64,000 nucleotides of DNA, from positions 3,224,001 through 3,288,000 of the forward strand of contig NZ_CP110680.1 in assembly GCF_028583725.1 (NCBI RefSeq), in the 5' to 3' direction. This DNA is from Cellulomonas fimi. GTDB lineage: Bacteria > Actinomycetota > Actinomycetes > Actinomycetales > Cellulomonadaceae. The notes below the pieces were generated by a model. The model did no database searches, was not told where the DNA came from, and worked only from the letters and a program-made list of their open reading frames with translations. The position numbers and the translations under genes are program-made. Positions 40,875 through 51,945 of this stretch are shown here, in pieces (position 1 is the stretch's first letter; every line of letters starts with the position of its first letter).

Positions 40875-42113
40875 TCAGGCCCCCGTGGGTACCTCGAGCG
40901 ACCGGTCGACGGTCATCCGCATGCCCGCCTGCCGCGGCGTGAGCTCGCTCTGCAGCACCAGCGCCGCCGCCCCGACGGCCGCGGCCTCGGGTGCGTTCGA
41001 CGAGATCGCGACGCGCACGGTGTGGTTCCCGCGTGCGAAGAACGACTGCGCGAGCCGGGCCTCGACCTCGGGCACGTACAGCGACCCCGCCATGGCGAAC
41101 GCCGGCCCGGTGAGCACGACGAGCTCGAGGTCGAGCACGTTCGCGAGCGTCTGCGCCGCGACGCCCAGGTAGCGCGCGGACCGCTCGATGACGCGCAGCG
41201 GCGTCTCCTCCCCCCGGCTGGCGGCGCGGGCGAGCGTCGCGAAGTCCTCGGCGACGGTGCGTCCGGTGAGCTCGAGGCCTGCGGCGCGTGCGGCGGCGAC
41301 GACGGCGGCCGGGCCGGCGAGCGCCTCGACGCAGCCGCGGCTCCCGCACCAGCACTCGGGGCCGTCGAGGTCGACGCAGATGTGCCCGACCTCGCCCGCG
41401 TTGGAGCTCGCGCCGCGGAAGACGGTGCCGTCGACGATGATCCCGGATCCGATGCCGGTGCCCATGTAGAGCGCGGCGAACGCGGACGCGGTGATGCCGC
41501 CGGACCAGTACTCGCCGATGGCGGCGGCGGTGGCGTCGTTGTCGAGCAGCACGGGCAGCCCGACGGCGTCCTCGAGCGCGGCGGCGAGCGGGAACTCGGT
41601 CCACGCCTGCATGACGGGCGGCGTGAGCGTCATGCCGGTCGACGCCGTGATGGGTCCGGGCGACACGACGCCGAGGCCGAGCACGCGCTCGGGGTCGACC
41701 CCGACGCGCGCGACCGTGGCGCGGATCTCGGCGGCGATGCGGGCGACGACGTCGCGCGGGTCGTCGGAGCCCGCACCGGGGCGCCGCCAGCGCGCGACGA
41801 TCGCGCCGCCGAGGTTGGCGATGACGTAGGTGATCCCGGCGTGGTCGAGGTGCACACCGACGGCGAAGCGCGCGTAGGGCTCGAGCTCGAGCAGCATGCG
41901 CGGCTTGCCGCCGGTCGACTCGGCGCGGCCGACCTCGACGACGAGCCCGTCGTCGATGAGACGCCGCACGACGGTCGAGATCGTCGCGGCGGTGAACCCG
42001 GTGGCACGCGTGAGCTCGACGCGGCTGATGGTCCCGGCCGCGCGGATGAGGTCCAGGATCGCGGCCCTGCTGCTGGCGTGCGCGGCGCCCAGGCCCGTCT
42101 GCAGGCTGCTCAC
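40875..42113 (-). CDS. ROK family transcriptional repressor of the alpha-galactoside/mannoside locus
   Basis: Protein of 412 residues. The N-terminal winged HTH (TISRVELTRATGFTAATISTVVRRLIDDGLVVEVG, residues ~29-63) is followed by a ROK domain with VGVHLDHAGITYVIANL, LLDNDATAAAIGEYW, MGTGIGSGIIVDG and the zinc motif PECWCGSRGCVEA. The GTG start has a GAGGAAGG ribosome-binding site, and an ATCGTTATCGT stretch upstream (complement of 42149-42154) offers a -10. It is divergent from the CUT1 importer. Its likely operators are the matching elements at 42194-42224 and 48392-48422. Ligand unknown, presumably a galactose- or mannose-containing sugar. Confidence 0.88.
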   Translation of the reverse strand: MSSLQTGLGAAHASSRAAILDLIRAAGTISRVELTRATGFTAATISTVVRRLIDDGLVVEVGRAESTGGKPRMLLELEPYARFAVGVHLDHAGITYVIANLGGAIVARWRRPGAGSDDPRDVVARIAAEIRATVARVGVDPERVLGLGVVSPGPITASTGMTLTPPVMQAWTEFPLAAALEDAVGLPVLLDNDATAAAIGEYWSGGITASAFAALYMGTGIGSGIIVDGTVFRGASSNAGEVGHICVDLDGPECWCGSRGCVEALAGPAAVVAAARAAGLELTGRTVAEDFATLARAASRGEETPLRVIERSARYLGVAAQTLANVLDLELVVLTGPAFAMAGSLYVPEVEARLAQSFFARGNHTVRVAISSNAPEAAAVGAAALVLQSELTPRQAGMRMTVDRSLEVPTGA

Positions 42114-42193: not shown

Positions 42194-42224
42194 TTGACTA
42201 ACTTTGTTCACTTGCCTAAGAATG
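42194..42224 (+). promoter_or_regulatory. Promoter/operator element of the CUT1 importer (twin copy A)
   Basis: -35 TTGACT (42194-42199), 17-bp spacer, -10 TAAGAA (42217-42222). The sequence matches 25 of 31 positions with the element at 48392-48422. TTGACTAA and TTGCCTAA form a direct repeat 18 bp apart. It is AT-rich relative to its surroundings and precedes a ~90-nt leader to the binding-protein gene. Confidence 0.78.
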
Positions 42225-42320
42225 CCACGCGGAGCAGGGTTCGCGAACGACCCCGACGGTGACGAAGCCCCTCCACACCGGCCGGCACGCGGAGGTGCCG
42301 GCCCGACGAGAGGATCAAGG

Positions 42321-43646
42321 ATGTTCCCTCAGAAGCGACGCACCCGCGTCCTGGCGGCCGCGGCCGCCACCACGGTCCTCGCCCTCACGGCCGCGTGCTC
42401 GGGCGGCGGGGGCGGCGACGAGGAGGCCAACGACGACGGCACCCCTGCGGGTGCGATCACGGTCCTGACCTGGCGCACGGACCTCGTCGAGGACGGCACG
42501 TTCGACGACTACGTCGAGAAGTTCAAGGCCAAGTACCCCGAGGTCACCGAGGTCAAGATCGAGGGCATCACCGACTACGAGGGCGAGGTGAAGACGCGCA
42601 TGAGCACCGACAACTACGGCGACGTCCTCGCGATCCCCGGCTCGGTGACCCCGGACCAGTACGCCGACTTCTTCGAGCCGCTCGGCACGCAGGAGGAGAT
42701 CGGCGCCGAGTACCAGTGGATCAACGACAAGTCCTTCGAGGGCCAGTCGTACGGCATCCCGGTCGTCGGCAACGTGCAGGGCTACGTCTACAACAAGCGC
42801 GTGTGGGAGGAGGCCGGCGTCACCGAGTTCCCCGACACGCCCGACGCCTTCCTCGACGCGCTGCGGAAGATCAAGGACCACGGCGTCGAGGTCGCGCCGC
42901 TCTACACCAACTACAAGGACGGCTGGCCGCTGTCGCAGTGGGACGGCTGGCTCGGCGCCGTCACGGCCGACCCGGACTGGAAGAACAAGATCGTCGAGTC
43001 CGACACACCGTGGACGCCGGACAGCGACTACGGCGTCGTCGACGGCCTCGTCTACGAGGCGGTCGCGCGGGGCCTGACCGAGGCCGACCCGACGACCACC
43101 AACTGGGAGGAGTCGAAGCGTCTGCTCGGCACCGGCCAGGTCGCCACGATGGTGCTCGGCTCGTGGGCCATCCCGCAGATGCAGGCCGCCGCGGAGGCCG
43201 CCGGCGAGGACCCGGCCGACATCGCCTACGCCCCGACGCCCGTCAAGGTCGACGGCACGTTCCACTCCGTCGCCGGCGGCGACTACAACCTGGGCATCAA
43301 CGTGCACTCGAAGAACAAGGCGACCGCGCGCGCGTGGATCGACTGGTTCAACCACGAGTCGGGCTTCTCGGAGTCCCAGGCGGGCCTCTCGCCGATCATC
43401 GACGGCCCGGTGCCGGCCGCCCTCGACAGCTTCGTCTCCGAGGTCGAGCTCATCACGCTGAACCCCGCCCCCGAGGGCAAGGAGGCGCTGTTCGGCGACA
43501 TCGACAAGGCGTCGGGCATCGTCACCACGGACCCGAAGTTCCGTCAGCAGACCGTCGACGACGCCCGCTCGGGCGCCCGCACCCTCGAGCAGATCTTCGA
43601 CGACCTCAACGCCAAGTGGGCCGAGGGTCGGGCGTCGGTCGCCTGA
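42321..43646 (+). CDS. CUT1-type carbohydrate ABC transporter substrate-binding lipoprotein
   Basis: Extracellular solute-binding protein of family 1 (oligosaccharide type), 441 residues. The signal peptide has basic residues KRR, a hydrophobic run, and lipobox LTAAC, followed by a Gly/Asp-rich linker. The mature domain shows AITVLTWRTDLVEDGTFDDYVEKFKAKYPEV, a central GIPVVGNVQGYVYNKRVWEEAGV and C-terminal SEVELITLNPAPEG. The ATG at 42321 follows GAGAGGATCAAGG. It is first in a binding protein - two permeases operon with no ATPase gene. The co-located alpha-galactosidase and beta-mannosidase suggest galacto-manno-oligosaccharides as ligand. Confidence 0.92.
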   Translation: MFPQKRRTRVLAAAAATTVLALTAACSGGGGGDEEANDDGTPAGAITVLTWRTDLVEDGTFDDYVEKFKAKYPEVTEVKIEGITDYEGEVKTRMSTDNYGDVLAIPGSVTPDQYADFFEPLGTQEEIGAEYQWINDKSFEGQSYGIPVVGNVQGYVYNKRVWEEAGVTEFPDTPDAFLDALRKIKDHGVEVAPLYTNYKDGWPLSQWDGWLGAVTADPDWKNKIVESDTPWTPDSDYGVVDGLVYEAVARGLTEADPTTTNWEESKRLLGTGQVATMVLGSWAIPQMQAAAEAAGEDPADIAYAPTPVKVDGTFHSVAGGDYNLGINVHSKNKATARAWIDWFNHESGFSESQAGLSPIIDGPVPAALDSFVSEVELITLNPAPEGKEALFGDIDKASGIVTTDPKFRQQTVDDARSGARTLEQIFDDLNAKWAEGRASVA

Positions 43647-43657
43647 GAGGTCCTGCC

Positions 43658-44632
43658 ATGACGACCGCTCCCTCGGGCCTCACCGGCCCGGTGACGGCGG
43701 CCGCGCAGCAGTCCGACGCGGCCCGCACCCCCCGGAAGCCCCGGGGCGGTGCGGGCCGCGGCACCGCGTGGTACCGCCGGCTCACGCCGTACTTCTTCCT
43801 GCTGGTCCCCGTCGGGCTCCTGCTTCTCCTCACGTACGTCCCCGTCGTCAACATGTTCTGGTACTCGCTGACGGACTGGGACGGCCTCGACAAGACGAAG
43901 AGCTTCGTCGGCCTCGAGAACTTCGTGGACGTGTTCACCGAGCCCGCGAACGTGCGCGTGTTCGTCGTGTCGCTCTACTACTTCGTCGGCTCGTTCGTGC
44001 AGATGGCGCTCGCGCTGTACTTCGCGACGATCCTGTCGTTCAAGGTGCGGTTCAAGAACCTGTGGAAGGGCATCCTCTTCTTCCCGTACCTCATCAACGG
44101 CGTCGCGATCGGCCTGATCTTCCTCAACTTCCTCAAGCCCGGCGGCGGCCTCGACACGGTGCTCATGGCGGCCGGCCTGGAGAGCCTGATCCAGCAGTGG
44201 ACCGGTGACCCCGACATCGCGAACTACTCGCTCGCGGCCGTCTCGGTGTGGCGCTACATGGGCCTGAACTTCGTGATGTTCCTCGGCGCCATCCAGTCGA
44301 TCAACAGCGAGATCTACGAGGCCGCCGAGATCGACGGCGCGAGCCGCTGGCAGCAGTTCTGGAGCATCATCCTGCCGTCGATCCGCCCGATCGTCGGGCT
44401 GTCGTTCATCCTCGCGATCTCCGGCGCGCTGTCGGTGTTCGAGATCCCGTTCGTCATGACGGGCGGCGCGAACGGCACCGAGACGTTCGTCATCCGCACC
44501 ATCTGGACCGGCTTCGAGCGCAGCATGGTCGGCCTCGCCTCGGCGATGGCCGTGGTGCTCCTGCTCATCGTGCTGGTCATCACGTGGATCCAGCGCAAGG
44601 TCGTCCCCGACGAGGAGGTGGACCTCACATGA
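43658..44632 (+). CDS. CUT1 sugar ABC transporter permease (MalF/LacF-like)
   Basis: Membrane component of the importer, 324 residues. The polar N-terminal ~35 residues are followed by six predicted membrane segments, starting with LTPYFFLLVPVGLLLLLTYVPVV. The cytoplasmic EAA loop, EIYEAAEIDGASRWQQFWSIILPSIRP, which docks to the ATPase, is intact. The ATG at 43658 is 11 nt after the binding-protein stop with GAGAGG before it. The 3' end overlaps the second permease by 4 nt. Confidence 0.93.
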   Translation: MTTAPSGLTGPVTAAAQQSDAARTPRKPRGGAGRGTAWYRRLTPYFFLLVPVGLLLLLTYVPVVNMFWYSLTDWDGLDKTKSFVGLENFVDVFTEPANVRVFVVSLYYFVGSFVQMALALYFATILSFKVRFKNLWKGILFFPYLINGVAIGLIFLNFLKPGGGLDTVLMAAGLESLIQQWTGDPDIANYSLAAVSVWRYMGLNFVMFLGAIQSINSEIYEAAEIDGASRWQQFWSIILPSIRPIVGLSFILAISGALSVFEIPFVMTGGANGTETFVIRTIWTGFERSMVGLASAMAVVLLLIVLVITWIQRKVVPDEEVDLT

Positions 44633-45453
44633 TCCGCGCCGTCACCGGCACCGCGAAGTACGTCTCCCTCGTGGTGGCGTCGATCGCGATGCTCCTGCCG
44701 CTCGGGCTCATCCTCTTCGGGTCGTTCAAGACCGACCAGGAGTTCCTCTCGACGGGCCCGATGACCCCGCCGGCCGACTGGTTCAACGTCGAGAACTACG
44801 TGACCGCGTTCACCCGCGGCAACATGCTCGGCGCGTTCGGGAACACGGTGGTCATCTTCGCCGCGGCGATCGTCGGCACGATCCTCATCGGCGCCGCCAC
44901 CGCCTACGCGCTCGACCGCTTCCGGTTCATCGGCCGCGGCACCGTGCTCAAGCTGTTCCTGCTCGCGACGCTCGTCCCCGGCGTCACCACGCAGGTCGCG
45001 ACGTTCCAGATCATCAACGGCCTGGGCCTCTACGACTCCCAGCTCGCGCTGATCCTGCTGTTCATGGGCACCGACATCATCTCGATCTACATCTTCCTGC
45101 AGTTCGTCCGGGCCATTCCCCGGTCGCTCGACGAGGCGGCGATGATCGAGGGCGCCGGGCACCTGCGGATCTTCTTCCAGATCATCCTGCCCAACCTCAA
45201 GCCCGCGATCGCGACCGTCGTCATCATCAAGGGCATCGGCATCTACAACGAGTTCTTCCTGCCGTTCCTCTACCTGCCCACGAAGGACCTGCGGCCGATC
45301 TCGACGACCCTGTTCGACTTCAAGGGCCCGTTCGGCGCGCAGTGGGAGGTCATCTCGGCGGGCGTCGTCATCACGATCATCCCGATCCTCGTGCTGTTCC
45401 TGTTCCTGCAGCGCTGGATCTACAACGGCTTCACCTCGGGCGCCACGAAGTAG
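44629..45453 (+). CDS. CUT1 sugar ABC transporter permease (MalG/LacG-like)
   Basis: Second permease, 274 residues with six predicted membrane segments. The EAA loop is RSLDEAAMIEGAGHLRIFFQIILPNLKP. The ATG overlaps the first permease's stop by 4 nt. A long terminator hairpin follows 10 nt after the stop. No ATP-binding gene is present here, so the pair probably relies on a shared MsiK/MalK-type ATPase encoded elsewhere, as is known for many actinobacterial CUT1 systems. Confidence 0.93.
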   Translation: MIRAVTGTAKYVSLVVASIAMLLPLGLILFGSFKTDQEFLSTGPMTPPADWFNVENYVTAFTRGNMLGAFGNTVVIFAAAIVGTILIGAATAYALDRFRFIGRGTVLKLFLLATLVPGVTTQVATFQIINGLGLYDSQLALILLFMGTDIISIYIFLQFVRAIPRSLDEAAMIEGAGHLRIFFQIILPNLKPAIATVVIIKGIGIYNEFFLPFLYLPTKDLRPISTTLFDFKGPFGAQWEVISAGVVITIIPILVLFLFLQRWIYNGFTSGATK

Positions 45454-45462
45454 CGCCCGCAC

Positions 45463-45502
45463 GGCGACGGGCCCGGTCGACACCTCGGCCGGGCCCGTCG
45501 CC
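45463..45502 (+). terminator. Strong terminator hairpin after the CUT1 importer operon
   Basis: A perfect 14-bp GC stem (45463-45476 with 45489-45502) with a 12-nt loop begins 10 nt after the last permease stop. It has only a short pyrimidine tail (CGCTCT) and no U-run. Confidence 0.75.
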
Positions 45503-45551
45503 GCTCTGCGCTTGAGGACGCCGCCCGCGGTGCCGACTCCCCGGGTGGGAG

Positions 45552-46166
45552 GTGACCGTGGACGTCGGGGTGCTCACGCTCGTGCTCGTCGCGACGAGCG
45601 TCCTCGCCGTGCGTGCCGTCGTCCGCCTCCTGCGCGGGACCGTCTCCTGGCCCGCGCTCGGGATCGCCGCCGTCGTCCTGTGGACGGCGCTCGCGGGCGT
45701 CGCCGCCTTCCACGAGGTCCGTCACCACCGCACGCAGGCGCTCGCGACGTCCGCGACGCGGCTCGCGTCGGGCAACCCCGAGGCGAGCGTCGACTGCGTG
45801 CGCGTCACGACCGACCTCGTCGACCTCTCGCCGTACCGCGGGTTCGTCATGCACGACGACCCGACGACGTCGACGCTGCCGGCCACGACGTGCAGCGACC
45901 TCGCGCGGTGGGTCTCGAGCGGCAAGCAGTCCCCCTCGCTCGACGAGGTGATCGCCGTGCACGTCGTCTCGCACGAGGCGCAGCACGTCGCGGGCGAGCT
46001 CGACGAGGGAGCCGCCGAGTGCCGGGCGCTGCGGTGGGACGCGGCCGTCGCGGAGCGCATGGGCGCGACGCCGGAGCAGGCGGCCGCGCTCGCGGCCCGC
46101 TACCGCGCCGAGGTGTACCCGCACATGCGACGGCCGTACGTGCGGGACTGCACGACCGTCCCCTGA
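45552..46166 (+). CDS. Membrane-anchored putative HEXXH metallopeptidase-like protein
   Basis: Uncharacterised 204-residue protein with two N-terminal membrane helices (about residues 3-24 and 33-53) and an extracytoplasmic C-terminal domain. That domain contains HEAQH at 141-145 followed by DEGAAEC (Glu152 and Glu156), the arrangement of a gluzincin-type zinc site. It also has cysteines at 82, 114, 157 and 200 that could pair. The GTG at 45552 is read as start; a GTG two codons later is possible. It lies between the importer terminator and the alpha-galactosidase gene (convergent). A connection to sugar uptake is not evident. Enzymatic activity is unproven. Confidence 0.65.
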   Translation: MTVDVGVLTLVLVATSVLAVRAVVRLLRGTVSWPALGIAAVVLWTALAGVAAFHEVRHHRTQALATSATRLASGNPEASVDCVRVTTDLVDLSPYRGFVMHDDPTTSTLPATTCSDLARWVSSGKQSPSLDEVIAVHVVSHEAQHVAGELDEGAAECRALRWDAAVAERMGATPEQAAALAARYRAEVYPHMRRPYVRDCTTVP

Positions 46167-46190
46167 CGCGACGGTCGGTCCCCGGTCCGG

Positions 46191-48371
46191 TCAGACGCGC
46201 GTCGCCCGGACGAGGACCAGGTGCTCGGGGAACAGCACCGGCACCTGCACCCCGACCTCGGCGAGCACACGCCCCGTGAGCCGCACCCCGTCGGGCGTCC
46301 ACCAGGGCAGCGACGGCCCGTGGCTCCCGAGCCCGTCGACGACGTCGCCGGGCGGCTGGGGCCGCACGTGGTACGTCGCGTCGGGGTCGAGCCCGGGGAA
46401 CGTGAGCCGTCCGGTCGGCAGCGCGTCCGAGGTGGCGGTCGCGACGACGGCGAACACCGCGTCCGACCCGTCGTGCGCCACGACGCCGTGCACGTGGTGC
46501 GACGGGTCGGCGACGTCGGCGTGCACGGCGGTCCCGGTGTGCAGGAGCCCGCGCAGCTCCTTGTACGCAGCGACCCACGCGGCGAGCTCGGCCCGCTGCG
46601 CCGCGTCGGCCTCGCGTAGGTCCCACTCGATGCCGAGGTGCCCGAACAGCGCCGTCCCCGCCCGGAACGACAGCGCGTGCCGCCGGCCGGTGCTGTGCGC
46701 GGTGCCCGACCCGACGTGCGCCCCGATCAGCTCGAGCGGCACGAGGAGGTTGGTCCAGCGCTGGATCTGCTGCCGCTCGAGCGCGTCGATGCAGTCGCTC
46801 CCCCAGATCCGGTCGGTGCGCTGCAGGATCTCCAGGTCGACGCGCGCGCCTCCCGACGAGCACGACTCGATCTCGACCCCGGGGTGCCGGGCGCGCAGCT
46901 CGTCGAGCAGCCGGTAGACCGCGAGCGTCTGCCCGTGGACGCCCGCGACGCCCGCGTGGCCCGCGTCGACGAGGTCGCGGTTGTGGTCCCACTTGAGGTA
47001 CCCGATCCGGTACTCGGTGAGCAGGGCGTCGAGCCGCTCGAGGATGTACGCGTACGCGTCGGGGTGCGCCAGGTCGAGCACCTGCTGGTGCCGTGCCGGC
47101 CGCGGCAGGCGGGCGGGCACGCGCAGGATCCAGTCGGGGTGCGCCCGCGCGAGGTCGGAGTCCGGGTTGACCATCTCGGGCTCGACCCACAGCCCGAACT
47201 GCATCCCGAGCCCGGTCACGTGGTCGACGAGCGGGTGCAGGCCCTCGGGCCAGACGTCGGCGGAGACGTACCAGTCACCGAGCCCGCGGGTGTCGTCCCG
47301 CCGGGAGCCGAACCAGCCGTCGTCGAGGACGTACCGCTCCGCGCCGATCGCCGCGGCGGCGTCGGCCAGCTCGGTGAGGCGGTCCAGGTCGTGCGCGAAG
47401 TAGACGGCCTCCCAGGTGTTGAGCGTGACCGGCCGGGGCGTGCGCGGGTGCTGCGGCCGCGCGCGCATCCACCGGTGGAACCGGCCCGCGAGCGCGTCGA
47501 GCCCGACGCCCCACGACCCGTAGGTCCACGGGCTCGTGTACGACTCACCGGGCGCGAGCCGGACCTCGCCCGCCGTCAGCAGCTCGCCGCCGCCCAGCAG
47601 GCCCGGCTGGTGGTGGCTGCGTTCGGCGAGCGTGCGGTGGTTGCCCGACCACGCGGTGTGCAGCCCCCAGACCTGTCCGCGGCGGTGCCCGAACGACGGC
47701 GTGCCGGCGACGAGGACGAACGCGGTGTCGTACCCGGTCCGGCCGCGCCGGTTGTCGCGCAGCCGCGTGCCGTGCGTGAACGCGGTCCGCTGCGGGCTGC
47801 GTTCGCGCGCCCAGCGGCCGCTGAAGTCGAGCAGCTCGGTCGCGGCGGCGGGCACGGGCAGCGTGAGGAGCAGCCCGTCGAGCGCGTAGACGTCGTCGGC
47901 CGTGTTGGTGAGCGTGCCGCGCTGCCGCACCAGGCCCTGCGCGGTGAGCTCGAGGACGAGCTCGAGCGCGAGACCGGCGGCGGCGTCGACGGCCTGGACG
48001 GCGAGCCGCTGCGTCGCGTCGTCGGTGTGCTCGACCGTGTGCCCGGTGACGGCGAACGCCGTCGAGAAGTCGCGCCCGTCGCGCGAGCCGGTGAGCCCCG
48101 GCGTGCCGACGTGCCCGGCGGACTGCTCGGGCAGCACCGCGGCGGCGACCTCCCCGTCGACCGGGAACCCGAGGGGCACGGGCCGCGTCGCGTGCCGGAG
48201 GTCGGCCAGGACCGCCGGGTCGGGCGCGCCGAGGTCGGCGCCCCAGTGCAGCACGCGCGGGAGCGTGCCGCCGACGAGGTCGACGACCACGCTGACGCCG
48301 TCGGCGCGCAGGTGGACGAGGTCGGTGGTCGGGGGGTCGGGGACGTCGGTGTCCCGCGGCTCGGTGCTCAC
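46191..48371 (-). CDS. Alpha-galactosidase (GH36)
   Basis: Intracellular enzyme (no signal peptide) removing terminal alpha-galactose, 726 residues. GH36 features: an N-terminal beta-sandwich, RYVLDDGWFGSRRDDTRGLGDW, FGLWVEPEMVNPDSDL, nucleophile Asp462 in YLKWDHNRD, and acid/base Asp526 in RIWGSDCIDALERQQIQ, preceded by SCSSGGARVDLEIL. The GTG start (48369-48371) lies 6 nt behind CAGACT, so it may be leaderless. It is divergent from the beta-mannosidase, and its promoter lies next to the TTGACT element at 48392. In the context of the locus it would remove galactose side groups from imported galacto-manno-oligosaccharides or hydrolyse raffinose-type sugars. Confidence 0.94.
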   Translation of the reverse strand: MSTEPRDTDVPDPPTTDLVHLRADGVSVVVDLVGGTLPRVLHWGADLGAPDPAVLADLRHATRPVPLGFPVDGEVAAAVLPEQSAGHVGTPGLTGSRDGRDFSTAFAVTGHTVEHTDDATQRLAVQAVDAAAGLALELVLELTAQGLVRQRGTLTNTADDVYALDGLLLTLPVPAAATELLDFSGRWARERSPQRTAFTHGTRLRDNRRGRTGYDTAFVLVAGTPSFGHRRGQVWGLHTAWSGNHRTLAERSHHQPGLLGGGELLTAGEVRLAPGESYTSPWTYGSWGVGLDALAGRFHRWMRARPQHPRTPRPVTLNTWEAVYFAHDLDRLTELADAAAAIGAERYVLDDGWFGSRRDDTRGLGDWYVSADVWPEGLHPLVDHVTGLGMQFGLWVEPEMVNPDSDLARAHPDWILRVPARLPRPARHQQVLDLAHPDAYAYILERLDALLTEYRIGYLKWDHNRDLVDAGHAGVAGVHGQTLAVYRLLDELRARHPGVEIESCSSGGARVDLEILQRTDRIWGSDCIDALERQQIQRWTNLLVPLELIGAHVGSGTAHSTGRRHALSFRAGTALFGHLGIEWDLREADAAQRAELAAWVAAYKELRGLLHTGTAVHADVADPSHHVHGVVAHDGSDAVFAVVATATSDALPTGRLTFPGLDPDATYHVRPQPPGDVVDGLGSHGPSLPWWTPDGVRLTGRVLAEVGVQVPVLFPEHLVLVRATRV

Positions 48372-48391
48372 CGGACCAGTCTGGCATGCGA

Positions 48392-48422
48392 TTGACTTAC
48401 TTTATTCAGTTGTCTAACAATG
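48392..48422 (+). promoter_or_regulatory. Promoter/operator element of the beta-mannosidase gene (twin copy B)
   Basis: -35 TTGACT (48392-48397), 17-bp spacer, -10 TAACAA (48415-48420). It matches copy A at 42194 in 25 of 31 positions, although the flanking sequences are unrelated. The conserved spacer bases are not needed for a promoter, so they probably form an operator. It lies between the divergent alpha-galactosidase and beta-mannosidase genes. Confidence 0.78.
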
Positions 48423-48530: not shown

Positions 48531-51062
48531 ATGATCATCCAGGACCTCCCCGACGGCTGGACGCTGACCGCCGTCGCCGGCCCCGTCCCCGCCGACCTCG
48601 TCGGCGTCCGCGTCCGCACGCGCGTGCCGAGCACGAGCCACACCGCGCTGCTCGACGCCGGCCTGATCCCCGACCCGTACCTCGACCGCAACGAGGACGT
48701 GCTCGCCTGGATGCGCCGCACCGACTGGGCGTACGAGCGCCAGCTCGACCTCGACCCCGCCGCCGACGACGAGCGCGTCGACCTCGTCCTCGACGGGATC
48801 GACACCGTCGCCACCCTGACGTTCGACGGCCACGAGCTCGGCCGCACCGCCAACCAGCACCGCTCCTACCGGTTCGACGTCCGCACCCTGCTGCGCCCCG
48901 ACACCCAGCGGCTGCGCGTCCTCCTGCACTCCGCGATCGTGCACGCCGAGGCGGAGGCCGAGCGCCTCGGCGGCCGCCCCCTCGCCTACCCCCAGCCGTT
49001 CAACATGGTCCGCAAGATGGCGTGCTCGTTCGGCTGGGACTGGGGACCGGACCTGCAGACGGCCGGCCTCTGGAAGCCCGTGCGCGTCGAGCGCTGGCGC
49101 ACGGCGCGCCTCGCGCAGGTCCGGCCGCTCGTCACCGTCGACGCCGACGGCACCGGCCGCGTGCAGGTCCACGCCGACCTCGAACGCTCGGGCCTCCCGG
49201 GCGGTGACGTGCCCGTCACCGTGCGTGCGCGCGTCCTCGGCGCCGACGTCACGGTCGTCGTCCCACGAGACCGGACCCACGCCGTCGTGGAGCTCGAGGT
49301 CCCGCACGCCCCGCTGTGGTGGCCGGTCGGCCACGGCGCCCAGCCGCTGGCCGAGCTGACCGTCGTGCTCGGCACCGCGAGCGCCGACGAGCCCCTCGAC
49401 ACGTGGACCCGGCGCATCGGCTTCCGCACAGTCGAGATCGACACCGCACCCGACGACGACGGCACGCCCTTCACGTTCCGCGTCAACGGTCGCCCGATCT
49501 TCGTCAAGGGCGCCAACTGGATCCCCGACGACCACCTGCTGACCCGCCTCACGCGCGACCGCCTGGCCCGCCGGCTCGACCAGGCCGTCGAGGCGAACCT
49601 CAACCTGCTGCGCGTCTGGGGCGGCGGCATCTACGAGTCGGAGGACTTCTACGAGCTCGCCGACGAGCGCGGCCTGCTCGTCTGGCAGGACTTCCTGCTC
49701 GCGTGCGCCGCGTACCCCGAGGAGCAGCCGATCTGGGACGAGCTCGAGGCCGAGGCCCGCGAGAACGTCGCCCGCCTCACCCCGCACCCGTCGCTCGTGC
49801 TCTGGAACGGCGGCAACGAGAACCTGTGGGGCTTCGTGGACTGGGGCTGGCAGGAGGACCTGCAGGGCCGCACGTGGGGCTTCCGGATCGCGACCGAGCT
49901 GCTCAAGGGCGTCGTCGCCGAGCTCGACCCCACGCGCCCCTACGCCGACGGCTCGCCGTACTCGCCGGGCTTCGCGCTCGACGAGGTCCACCCCAACCAC
50001 CCGGACCACGGCACGCACCACGAGTGGGAGGTCTGGAACCGCGTCGACTACACCGTCTACCGCGACGACGTCCCCCGCTTCTGCTCGGAGTTCGGCTTCC
50101 AGGGCCCGCCGACGTGGACGACGCTCACGCGCGCGGTCCGCGCCGACGACGGCGGCCCGCTCACCAAGGACGACCCGACGTTCCTCCTGCACCAGAAGGC
50201 CGAGGACGGCAACGGCAAGCTCGACCGCGGCCTCGCGCCGCACCTGGGCGTGCCCGACGACTTCGCCGACTGGCACTGGGCGACGCAGCTCAACCAGGCG
50301 CGTGCGGTGTCGTTCGCGATCGAGCACTACCGCTCGTGGTGGCCGCGCACGGCCGGCGCGATCGTGTGGCAGCTCAACGACTGCTGGCCGGTGACCTCCT
50401 GGGCGGCCGTCGACGGCGACGAGCGCCCCAAACCGCTGTGGCACGCGCTCCGACGCGCCTACGCACCGCGCCTGCTCACGGTGCAGCCGCGTGACGGCCG
50501 CGACATGCTCGCCGTCGTCAACGACACCGCGGGCATCTGGCAGGGCGTCGTGCACCTGTCCCGGCGCCGGCTCGACGGCACGACGCTCGCCGAGGTCGAG
50601 CTCGCGCTGGCCGTCGGCGCCTGGTCCGTGGGCCTGTTCGCGCTGCCGCCCGAGGTCGCCACGCCCGACGACCCTGCCGGGGAGATCCTCGTCGCCCGGC
50701 TCGGCGACGTGCAGACCGTCCACACCTGGGTCGAGGACGTCGACCTCGCCCTGGACCCGTCGCCCCTGACCGCGACCGTGACACCCGTGCAGGACGGCTA
50801 CCGCGTCGACGTGACGGCCCGCTCCTTCGCCCGCTCCGTCACGCTGCACGTCGACCGGTTCGACCCGGACGCGGTCGTCGACACCGCGCTCGTCGACGTC
50901 CCCGGTGGCGAGACCGCGTCCTTCCACGTCCGCACCACGGTGCGGACCGACCCCGACGCGCTCACCCGCTCCCCCGTCCTGCGCACCGCGAACGACGTCG
51001 TGGTCCCCCGCGCACCGCAGACGGCGGCCGGCGCCGAGCGTGACCTCGAGTCGTCCCGCTGA
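48531..51062 (+). CDS. Beta-mannosidase (GH2)
   Basis: Intracellular exo-beta-mannosidase, 843 residues. GH2 architecture: a sugar-binding jelly roll (WTYERQLDL... to GWDWGPDLQTAG), an immunoglobulin-like domain, then the TIM barrel with NLLRVWGGGIYESEDFYELADERGLLVWQDF. Acid/base Glu430 is in WNGGNENLWGF, nucleophile Glu520 is in FCSEFGFQGPPTW, and C-terminal beta-domains follow. VWQLNDCWPVTSW is typical of beta-mannosidases, distinguishing it from beta-galactosidases. An in-frame ATG at 48420 falls inside the -10 box, so the ATG at 48531, preceded by AGGAG, is the real start and leaves a ~105-nt leader. Confidence 0.94.
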   Translation: MIIQDLPDGWTLTAVAGPVPADLVGVRVRTRVPSTSHTALLDAGLIPDPYLDRNEDVLAWMRRTDWAYERQLDLDPAADDERVDLVLDGIDTVATLTFDGHELGRTANQHRSYRFDVRTLLRPDTQRLRVLLHSAIVHAEAEAERLGGRPLAYPQPFNMVRKMACSFGWDWGPDLQTAGLWKPVRVERWRTARLAQVRPLVTVDADGTGRVQVHADLERSGLPGGDVPVTVRARVLGADVTVVVPRDRTHAVVELEVPHAPLWWPVGHGAQPLAELTVVLGTASADEPLDTWTRRIGFRTVEIDTAPDDDGTPFTFRVNGRPIFVKGANWIPDDHLLTRLTRDRLARRLDQAVEANLNLLRVWGGGIYESEDFYELADERGLLVWQDFLLACAAYPEEQPIWDELEAEARENVARLTPHPSLVLWNGGNENLWGFVDWGWQEDLQGRTWGFRIATELLKGVVAELDPTRPYADGSPYSPGFALDEVHPNHPDHGTHHEWEVWNRVDYTVYRDDVPRFCSEFGFQGPPTWTTLTRAVRADDGGPLTKDDPTFLLHQKAEDGNGKLDRGLAPHLGVPDDFADWHWATQLNQARAVSFAIEHYRSWWPRTAGAIVWQLNDCWPVTSWAAVDGDERPKPLWHALRRAYAPRLLTVQPRDGRDMLAVVNDTAGIWQGVVHLSRRRLDGTTLAEVELALAVGAWSVGLFALPPEVATPDDPAGEILVARLGDVQTVHTWVEDVDLALDPSPLTATVTPVQDGYRVDVTARSFARSVTLHVDRFDPDAVVDTALVDVPGGETASFHVRTTVRTDPDALTRSPVLRTANDVVVPRAPQTAAGAERDLESSR

Positions 51063-51094: not shown

Positions 51095-51945
51095 TGACGC
51101 ACGGCATGGATGCGGTCGGACTGGTCCTCGCCCGGCCTGCCCGGATGCTCGGCCTCGAGCCCTTCTTCATGGAGCTCATCGCCGGGATCGAGGAGTCGCT
51201 CGCGGTCGAGGGGCGCTCGTTGCTGCTGCACGTCGTCCCCGACCACGACGCCGAGATCGCCGCCTACCGGCGCTGGGGCGAGGGCCGGCTCGTCGACGCG
51301 GTCGTCGTCGTCAACGTCGCGCTCGAGGACAACCGCCTCGCGGTGCTGGGCGAGCTCGGCATCCCGACGGTGGTCGTCGGCGGCCCGACGCCCGACCTGC
51401 CCTTCGCGAACGTGTGGATCGACAACGGCCAGGCGATGCGCGACGCCGTCGGGCACCTCGTCGGCCTCGGCCACCTGCGCCTCGCGCGCGTGTCCGGCCC
51501 CCGCACGCTCGCGCACACCCAGGCCCGCACCGAGGCGTTCGTCGCCGAGTGCGCGCGCCTGGGCGCGCAGGGCAGCGTCGTCGAGGGCGACTACGGCGAG
51601 GAGTCCGCGACCCGCGCGACGCGTGCGCTGCTGGGCCGCGGCTCGCCGCCGTCCGCGATCATCTTCGACAACGACGTCATGGCCATCGCCGGCCTGCGCG
51701 TCGCCGCCGAGATGGGCGTGCCCGTCCCCGAGCGCCTCTCGCTGCTCGCCTGGGACGACTCGGCCCTCTGCCGCCTCGCGAGCCCCGCGCTGTCCGCGAT
51801 GAGCCTCGACGTGCACGCCATGGGCGTCCAGGTCGCCGACTGCGTGCTCAACCTCCTCGCCGACGGACCCGTGACGTCCTACACCGCCCCGCAGCCCCGG
51901 CTCGTGACCCGCGGCACGACGGCACCGCCCGCCCGGAACCCCTGA
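51094..51945 (+). CDS. LacI/PBP1-type sugar-sensor protein lacking the DNA-binding domain
   Basis: Protein of 283 residues that aligns by eye with the effector domain of LacI/GalR regulators: VGLVLARPARMLGLEPFFMELIAGIEESL, VDAVVVVNVALEDNRLAVLGELGIPTVVVGG, NVWIDNGQAMRDAVGHLVGLGH, and PSAIIFDNDVMAIAGLRVAAEMGVPVPERLSLLAWDDS. The usual ~55-60-residue N-terminal helix-turn-helix and hinge are absent. Only 31 bp separate this GTG from the beta-mannosidase stop, and no HTH is encoded there in any frame. A TACGCT box 7 nt before the GTG suggests an intact leaderless gene, not a misread one. It could be a truncated relic or an HTH-less sensor. It sits between the sugar locus and glgB. Confidence 0.7.
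   Translation: MTHGMDAVGLVLARPARMLGLEPFFMELIAGIEESLAVEGRSLLLHVVPDHDAEIAAYRRWGEGRLVDAVVVVNVALEDNRLAVLGELGIPTVVVGGPTPDLPFANVWIDNGQAMRDAVGHLVGLGHLRLARVSGPRTLAHTQARTEAFVAECARLGAQGSVVEGDYGEESATRATRALLGRGSPPSAIIFDNDVMAIAGLRVAAEMGVPVPERLSLLAWDDSALCRLASPALSAMSLDVHAMGVQVADCVLNLLADGPVTSYTAPQPRLVTRGTTAPPARNP

Follow-up and report, generated by a model that had tools for sequence, protein, structure and literature searches.

Twin promoter-like elements at a presumed beta-manno-oligosaccharide locus of Cellulomonas fimi as candidate operators of a ROK-family repressor

The genome of Cellulomonas fimi carries, within a stretch of 64,000 nucleotides (contig NZ_CP110680.1, positions 3,224,001 to 3,288,000; called here the window), two closely similar 31-base elements that precede the genes of a sugar importer and of a beta-mannosidase. 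Comparison of sequences indicates that each element is likely a promoter overlapped by an operator for the ROK-family repressor encoded beside the first of them, both belonging to a regulon for the uptake and breakdown of beta-manno-oligosaccharides. A sequence-only reading of the window had proposed that importer and hydrolases are joined by a promoter overlapped by a regulator site, and this proposal is supported by the conservation of the element, its position and its co-occurrence with the ROK gene.

The two elements in the C. fimi genome

Both elements were found where the sequence-only reading had placed them, on the + strand:

42194-42224, + strand: copy A, predicted promoter/operator element, TTGACTAACTTTGTTCACTTGCCTAAGAATG
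Parts of copy A, + strand (putative promoter, judged from sequence): -35 at 42194-42199; 17-bp spacer at 42200-42216; -10 TAAGAAT at 42217-42223
48392-48422, + strand: copy B, predicted promoter/operator element, TTGACTTACTTTATTCAGTTGTCTAACAATG
Parts of copy B, + strand: -35 at 48392-48397; spacer at 48398-48414; -10 TAACAAT at 48415-48421

The common layout is a -35 TTGACT, a 17-bp spacer and a -10 TAASAAT. The copies differ at five positions and are therefore identical at 26 of 31, which corrects an earlier count of 25. As had been claimed, the flanks are unrelated (14 of 60 bases match upstream and 16 of 60 downstream) and much richer in guanine plus cytosine (GC), with 35% and 29% GC in the elements versus 74% and 77% in the 200-base flanks, the window having 73%. 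Copy A separates the ROK gene (- strand) from the importer genes (+ strand) and copy B separates a GH36 alpha-galactosidase gene (- strand) from a GH2 beta-mannosidase gene (+ strand), again in agreement with the first description.

When the window was shuffled 100 times with its dinucleotide content preserved, the pattern matched 0.00 times on average. Allowing at most 3 mismatches, the whole genome (a single contig of 4,486,221 bases) contains only two matches, copies A and B, and none to the reversed pattern. In this genome the element is thus not spread before many unrelated genes, both matches being at the locus; the wider regulon that had been hoped for, with further sites before mannanase or ATPase genes, was not found in this genome at the same threshold, nor was any third site. 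When the 15-base operator core was searched alone with at most 3 mismatches, 24 matches were obtained against 19 for the reversed control, and those with fewer than 2 mismatches were the two known sites only. Since the core performs no better than its reversed control, we claim no further regulon member: in its own genome the regulon is local and has two sites.

Conservation, position and co-occurrence with the ROK gene

To follow the element in relatives, its 26-base core was searched at up to 3 mismatches in a set of 221 genomes of the family. It was present in 47 of them, at 70 places, and the reversed core gave no match in the 221 genomes. One place (the third match in G055), at the end of a chimeric contig without any other match to the locus, was dropped; in the regions read, the remaining 69 of 69 lie at the locus formed by the ROK, importer, alpha-galactosidase and beta-mannosidase genes. 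The 47 distinct cellulomonad 30-mers show strong conservation of TTGAC, of columns 8-11 and 14-17 and of TAA-AAT, and weak conservation of columns 18-20 and 22. The conservation of the spacer, which had been asserted for its full length, is strong in relatives for the left 11 bases and only weak for the right 6. At 24 two-site loci, paralogous copies agree at 85% of positions within the element versus 29% and 36% in the flanks. This count includes G158, where the first of two copies adjoins the ROK gene 2.2 kb before the second; because their flanks are identical, the pair probably reflects a fresh duplication.

Some loci departed from the usual form. In G031 (L145) the locus appears to be decaying, with a site at 3 mismatches, a short LacI-type match and the alpha-galactosidase and GlgB genes kept; neither ROK (expect value E≤1e-90) nor beta-mannosidase (E≤1e-150) was found in that genome. 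In L148 (G060) the ROK and binding-protein genes with their site are doubled head to head as an inverted repeat, either real or an assembly fault. Three species (L142, L143 and L144, from G045, G061 and G063) carry the 3-mismatch form TGCACTGACTTTGTTCG..CTAAGAAA away from the locus genes.

Positions were compared in the window and 92 fetched loci, a site being defined by at most 7 mismatches over 25 fixed bases. Counts were taken from loci whose ROK copy is at least 52% identical and from three contigs without a visible ROK gene (L082, L108 and L146); loci with a ROK copy below 52% were left out, among them L080, which carries a site between ROK and beta-mannosidase. Of the importer binding-protein genes, 44 of 44 have a site at most 450 bases upstream and 40 are directly divergent from ROK, so that the regulator gene adjoins its presumed targets in an arrangement kept in relatives. 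Beta-mannosidase genes have a site in front of them in 34 of 35 cases where they diverge from alpha-galactosidase and in 2 of 6 where they diverge from ROK, in just 3 of 17 where they follow on from permease 2, and in 0 of 3 where they stand behind ROK. Sites stand mainly at the start of a new transcription unit, since importer and divergent beta-mannosidase genes have them and run-on genes mostly do not. At eight loci (L066, L067, L097, L107, L109, L139, L140 and L141) ROK follows the alpha-galactosidase gene, a single site precedes beta-mannosidase and no importer was found in the region.

Across the family set, ROK is present in 80 of 221 genomes and beta-mannosidase in 160 of 221, at the thresholds given above. 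ROK is found in 46 of the 47 genomes with a site, and a site in only 1 of the 141 without ROK, namely G055, an assembly 89% complete in about 920 contigs with its site 22 bases from a contig end (Fisher p 2e-24, uncorrected for kinship). The site follows ROK and not beta-mannosidase, the enzyme being far commoner.

These distributions bear on the simplest alternative, that the element is a strong housekeeping promoter and nothing else, the likeness of the copies being a remnant of duplication. Its -35 and -10 are indeed close to the sigma-70 consensus, with a 17-bp gap, and the right 6 bases of the spacer are only weakly kept. However, the left 11 bases are kept between the copies and across genera while the flanks have been lost, and the element is confined to one locus and to genomes with ROK, which makes a plain promoter highly improbable.

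The search was extended beyond the family with ROK relatives, the best 80 of 134 being kept. Outside Cellulomonas, 47 named loci around ROK copies (L184-L235 minus 5 of Cellulomonas) were examined, and 44 contain a form of the element (16 fixed bases, at most 3 mismatches, a count made without a control). In 40 of these the site is no more than about 650 bases from the start of ROK, in 3 (L216, L223 and L234) it precedes beta-mannosidase and in 1 (L210) it is 3.2 kb away. The genera concerned are Streptomyces, Saccharothrix, Umezawaea, Amycolatopsis, Nocardiopsis, Streptomonospora, Microbispora and Humibacillus. An order-wide scan with a looser pattern (at most 2 mismatches) matched 32 of 396 genomes, of which 12 belong to the family, and the reversed control matched one genome. 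Outside the family, 20 of 361 genomes in the order matched; in 10 of these that were inspected, 4 sites precede beta-mannosidase and 1 lies beside a distant ROK gene (29%).

Two further groups of sequences were noticed. Four genomes of another family (G399, G349, G297 and G520, at L266-L269) share a related 30-mer, TTGACTGACTGTGTTCATGGAA.CAACAAT, whose surroundings lack all nine locus genes out to 1.5 kb. A second arrangement, seen at 14 loci (L124-L129, L132-L138 and L155), has distant ROK copies (42-51% identity), mostly two per locus, an alpha-galactosidase gene, a LacI-type gene and, beside ROK, a related promoter-like site.

Genes of the locus

The genes around the two elements run in the following order, the LacI-type gene being followed by one for the branching enzyme GlgB (+ strand):

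40875-42113, - strand: ROK-family regulator with an N-terminal winged helix (Pfam ROK 5e-45; MarR_2 2.8e-06; HTH_24 3.8e-06)
42321-43646, + strand: solute-binding protein of a CUT1-type importer (Pfam SBP_bac_1 2.1e-28)
43649-44632, + strand: importer permease 1 (Pfam BPD_transp_1 2.8e-21)
44626-45453, + strand: importer permease 2 (Pfam BPD_transp_1 6.3e-11)
45552-46166, + strand: 204-residue protein, between permease 2 and alpha-galactosidase
46191-48371, - strand: GH36 alpha-galactosidase (Pfam Melibiase 1.5e-117)
48534-51062, + strand: GH2 beta-mannosidase (Pfam GH2 domains)
51106-51945, + strand: LacI-type sugar-binding domain protein (Pfam Peripla_BP_3 1.9e-27)

The ROK protein, which presumably binds both elements, has its MarR_2 and HTH_24 matches at residues 17-60, aligns with solved full-length ROK regulators along residues 15-388 and scores under the cut-offs of the NCBIfam NagC/Mlc models. 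Its nearest named copies are those of C. algicola (97%), C. fimi HM71 (97%) and C. biazotea (93%). A second ROK-like protein, 32% identical to the regulator, is encoded in the window from 19259.

By homology, the locus holds a manno-oligosaccharide-type binding protein with two permeases. The best solved relatives of the binding protein are four BlMnBP1 entries (E about 1e-72, the next sequence being at 1.2e-17), three of which hold mannotriose or mannopentaose, and the importer is probably a CUT1 system for beta-manno-oligosaccharides. No ATPase gene was found among the nine locus proteins scanned. For the GH2 protein, the top-scoring solved relatives are beta-mannosidases (E 1.8e-131); its start was taken at 48534, the open frame also permitting 48420. 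Because BlMnBP1 and beta-mannosidase are these best relatives, the likeliest role of the locus is the import and cleavage of beta-manno-oligosaccharides that bear galactose side groups. The alpha-galactosidase gene diverges from copy B with its start codon 20 bases away, and may be under the control of this copy. The 204-residue protein has no Pfam or NCBIfam match and occurs at the corresponding place in close relatives only.

The LacI-type gene starts 43 bases 3' of beta-mannosidase, and many relatives retain it next to beta-mannosidase or ROK. In its product Pfam found no DNA-binding domain PF00356; the domain is likewise absent in 9 of 9 LacI-type relatives read stop to stop and was detected in a control LacI in L079. 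This kept sensor without a DNA-binding domain is the most unusual thing at the locus. One could imagine a two-sensor circuit in which the ROK repressor sits on the DNA and the LacI-type protein, devoid of the domain throughout the group, adjusts the switch, perhaps by retaining inducer inside the cell or through contact with the ROK protein; we consider such a circuit rather unlikely.

The same gene bears on the idea that a regulator coded elsewhere binds the element, the ROK gene being a mere neighbour. It does show that other sensors act on this sugar, but its product has no DNA-binding domain; moreover, the site follows ROK even at loci without importer or alpha-galactosidase, and in other families. 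We hold a regulator other than the ROK protein to be scarcely probable.

Operator form and recognition helix

In the parts of the literature consulted, ROK operators are described as mostly palindromes with a left side rich in T and a right side rich in A (PMC9599254, PMC4856308), and the base make-up of the element fits this description. The centre of symmetry was tried at columns 9.5, 13.5 and 18, of which column 18 is the best. With the centre fixed there, 135 of 20000 permutations were as high for 41 cellulomonad sites and 1 of 20000 for 32 wider sites, values to be read knowing that the centre was picked after looking, that the search pattern itself demanded part of the pairs and that the 32 include L118, which shows a perfect CTTAGTT-5-AACTAAG at this centre. 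The centre at 9.5 (38/5000 in cellulomonads and 83/5000 in the wider set), fixed but also chosen post hoc, was set aside. The centre at 13.5 was rejected as the operator of this group, not being significant here (279/5000); it is clear in the second, more distant ROK group (0/5000, for 11 sites picked by the search pattern), whose sites have a clear spacer palindrome, for example TACTAAATTTAGTA. A direct repeat of TTGNCTWA was favoured at offset 18 in cellulomonads (58/5000 permutations) and not in the wider set (1548/5000), and at offset 17 in the wider set (23/5000) and not in cellulomonads (709/5000); it was dropped because no offset holds in both sets.

In ROK copies beside the sites, the recognition helix usually reads T-A/G-A-T-V/I-S-T. 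Three copies (G029, G057 and G022) have a SAPT helix instead, for which the tree requires two changes, though it is compatible with one origin. Both site rows beside SAPT copies lack TTGAC, reading CTTGAT (G029) and TTGCCT (G022), whereas the other 81 of 83 rows all start with TTGAC, including four on contigs without visible ROK. The G057 site (GGGACA) is doubtful, with a score of 16.0 versus 21.0 for the best reversed-control scan. The loss of TTGAC appears to go with the entire SAPT helix, two or three events being involved.

Several observations weigh against an operator read by the ROK protein. Symmetry with a free centre is not significant (580, 613 and 424 of 2000 permutations as high). 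Microbispora ROK copies with a TGPT helix retain TTGAC, so that proline alone fails to explain the change seen with SAPT. Thirty-four of the 80 ROK genomes of the family lack the core at up to 3 mismatches; about nine of them have weaker forms, which lie at the locus in G022, G024, G054, G060, G068, G079, G080 and G098, and in several more distant ROK genomes no site scored above the best reversed-control scans. Finally, for 5 of the 10 out-of-family matches inspected, no gene of the nine at the locus lies within 1.5 kb.

Proposed mechanism and known ROK systems

From these comparisons we infer transcription from the elements with its start sites, ROK binding, repression and the effector. Each 31-mer would be a housekeeping-type promoter in which the ROK-family repressor encoded nearby also has its binding site. 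As long as beta-manno-oligosaccharides are absent, a ROK dimer would occupy both sites and keep RNA polymerase off the importer and beta-mannosidase operons, the divergent alpha-galactosidase and ROK genes perhaps being repressed too. Binding of a product of mannan breakdown to the ROK domain would release the repressor, and the uptake and breakdown genes would then be switched on together. The element would probably be an ordinary repressor-controlled promoter of a known kind.

ROK regulators can either repress or activate according to the consulted part of one report (PMC9599254), and the protein could bind the element as an activator. However, the kept block overlaps the -35, the spacer and the -10, as judged by sequence, where a bound protein is expected to block polymerase, and a -35 and -10 so near consensus would need no helper. 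Activation is therefore very unlikely in our view, and repression is retained in the comparisons below, which draw on portions of the cited papers.

Repression has its nearest mechanistic precedent, it would seem, in NagR of Bifidobacterium longum subsp. infantis, a ROK protein of actinobacteria that represses sugar importers as well as hydrolases and has 10 of its 11 operators overlapping the -35 or -10 (PMC9599254). Unlike the Cellulomonas system, with two sites and no clear palindrome, NagR governs a global regulon of 29 genes with amino-sugar effectors and a palindromic motif (PMC9599254). In function the closest appears to be ManR of Thermotoga maritima, a ROK regulator of two operons with two sites, which likewise hold mannan and mannoside hydrolases and a mannan-induced ATP-binding cassette (ABC) importer (PMC3750489). 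ManR, however, is from another phylum and its reported effector is mannose, and for most regulators of that paper no functional orthologues were found outside Thermotogales (PMC3750489); the likeness claimed is one of function only. In Streptomyces coelicolor, the proven novH site of RokB is also T-rich on the left and A-rich on the right and has the half TTTGTTC found in copy A, but its right half GAACAAA is missing from the element and RokB is tied to amino-acid metabolism (PMC4856308). CsnR of Streptomyces lividans is similarly an actinobacterial ROK regulator at a polysaccharide-breakdown locus; it differs in concerning chitosan and in its site, TAGGAAACTTTCCTA, a clear palindrome (PMC4856308). 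In a literature search that stopped short of most subscription journals and did not extend to RegPrecise, we found no description of the element and no work treating Cellulomonas, the ROK family and mannan together.

The element offers a precise candidate operator for a ROK group that spans Cellulomonas to Streptomyces, Saccharothrix and Microbispora, and gives this group a likely job, the use of mannan. The natural pairs of recognition helix and site, some of them altered, are material for learning how ROK proteins read DNA, and the compact promoter-operator with its regulator could become a sugar-controlled switch for industrial actinobacteria.

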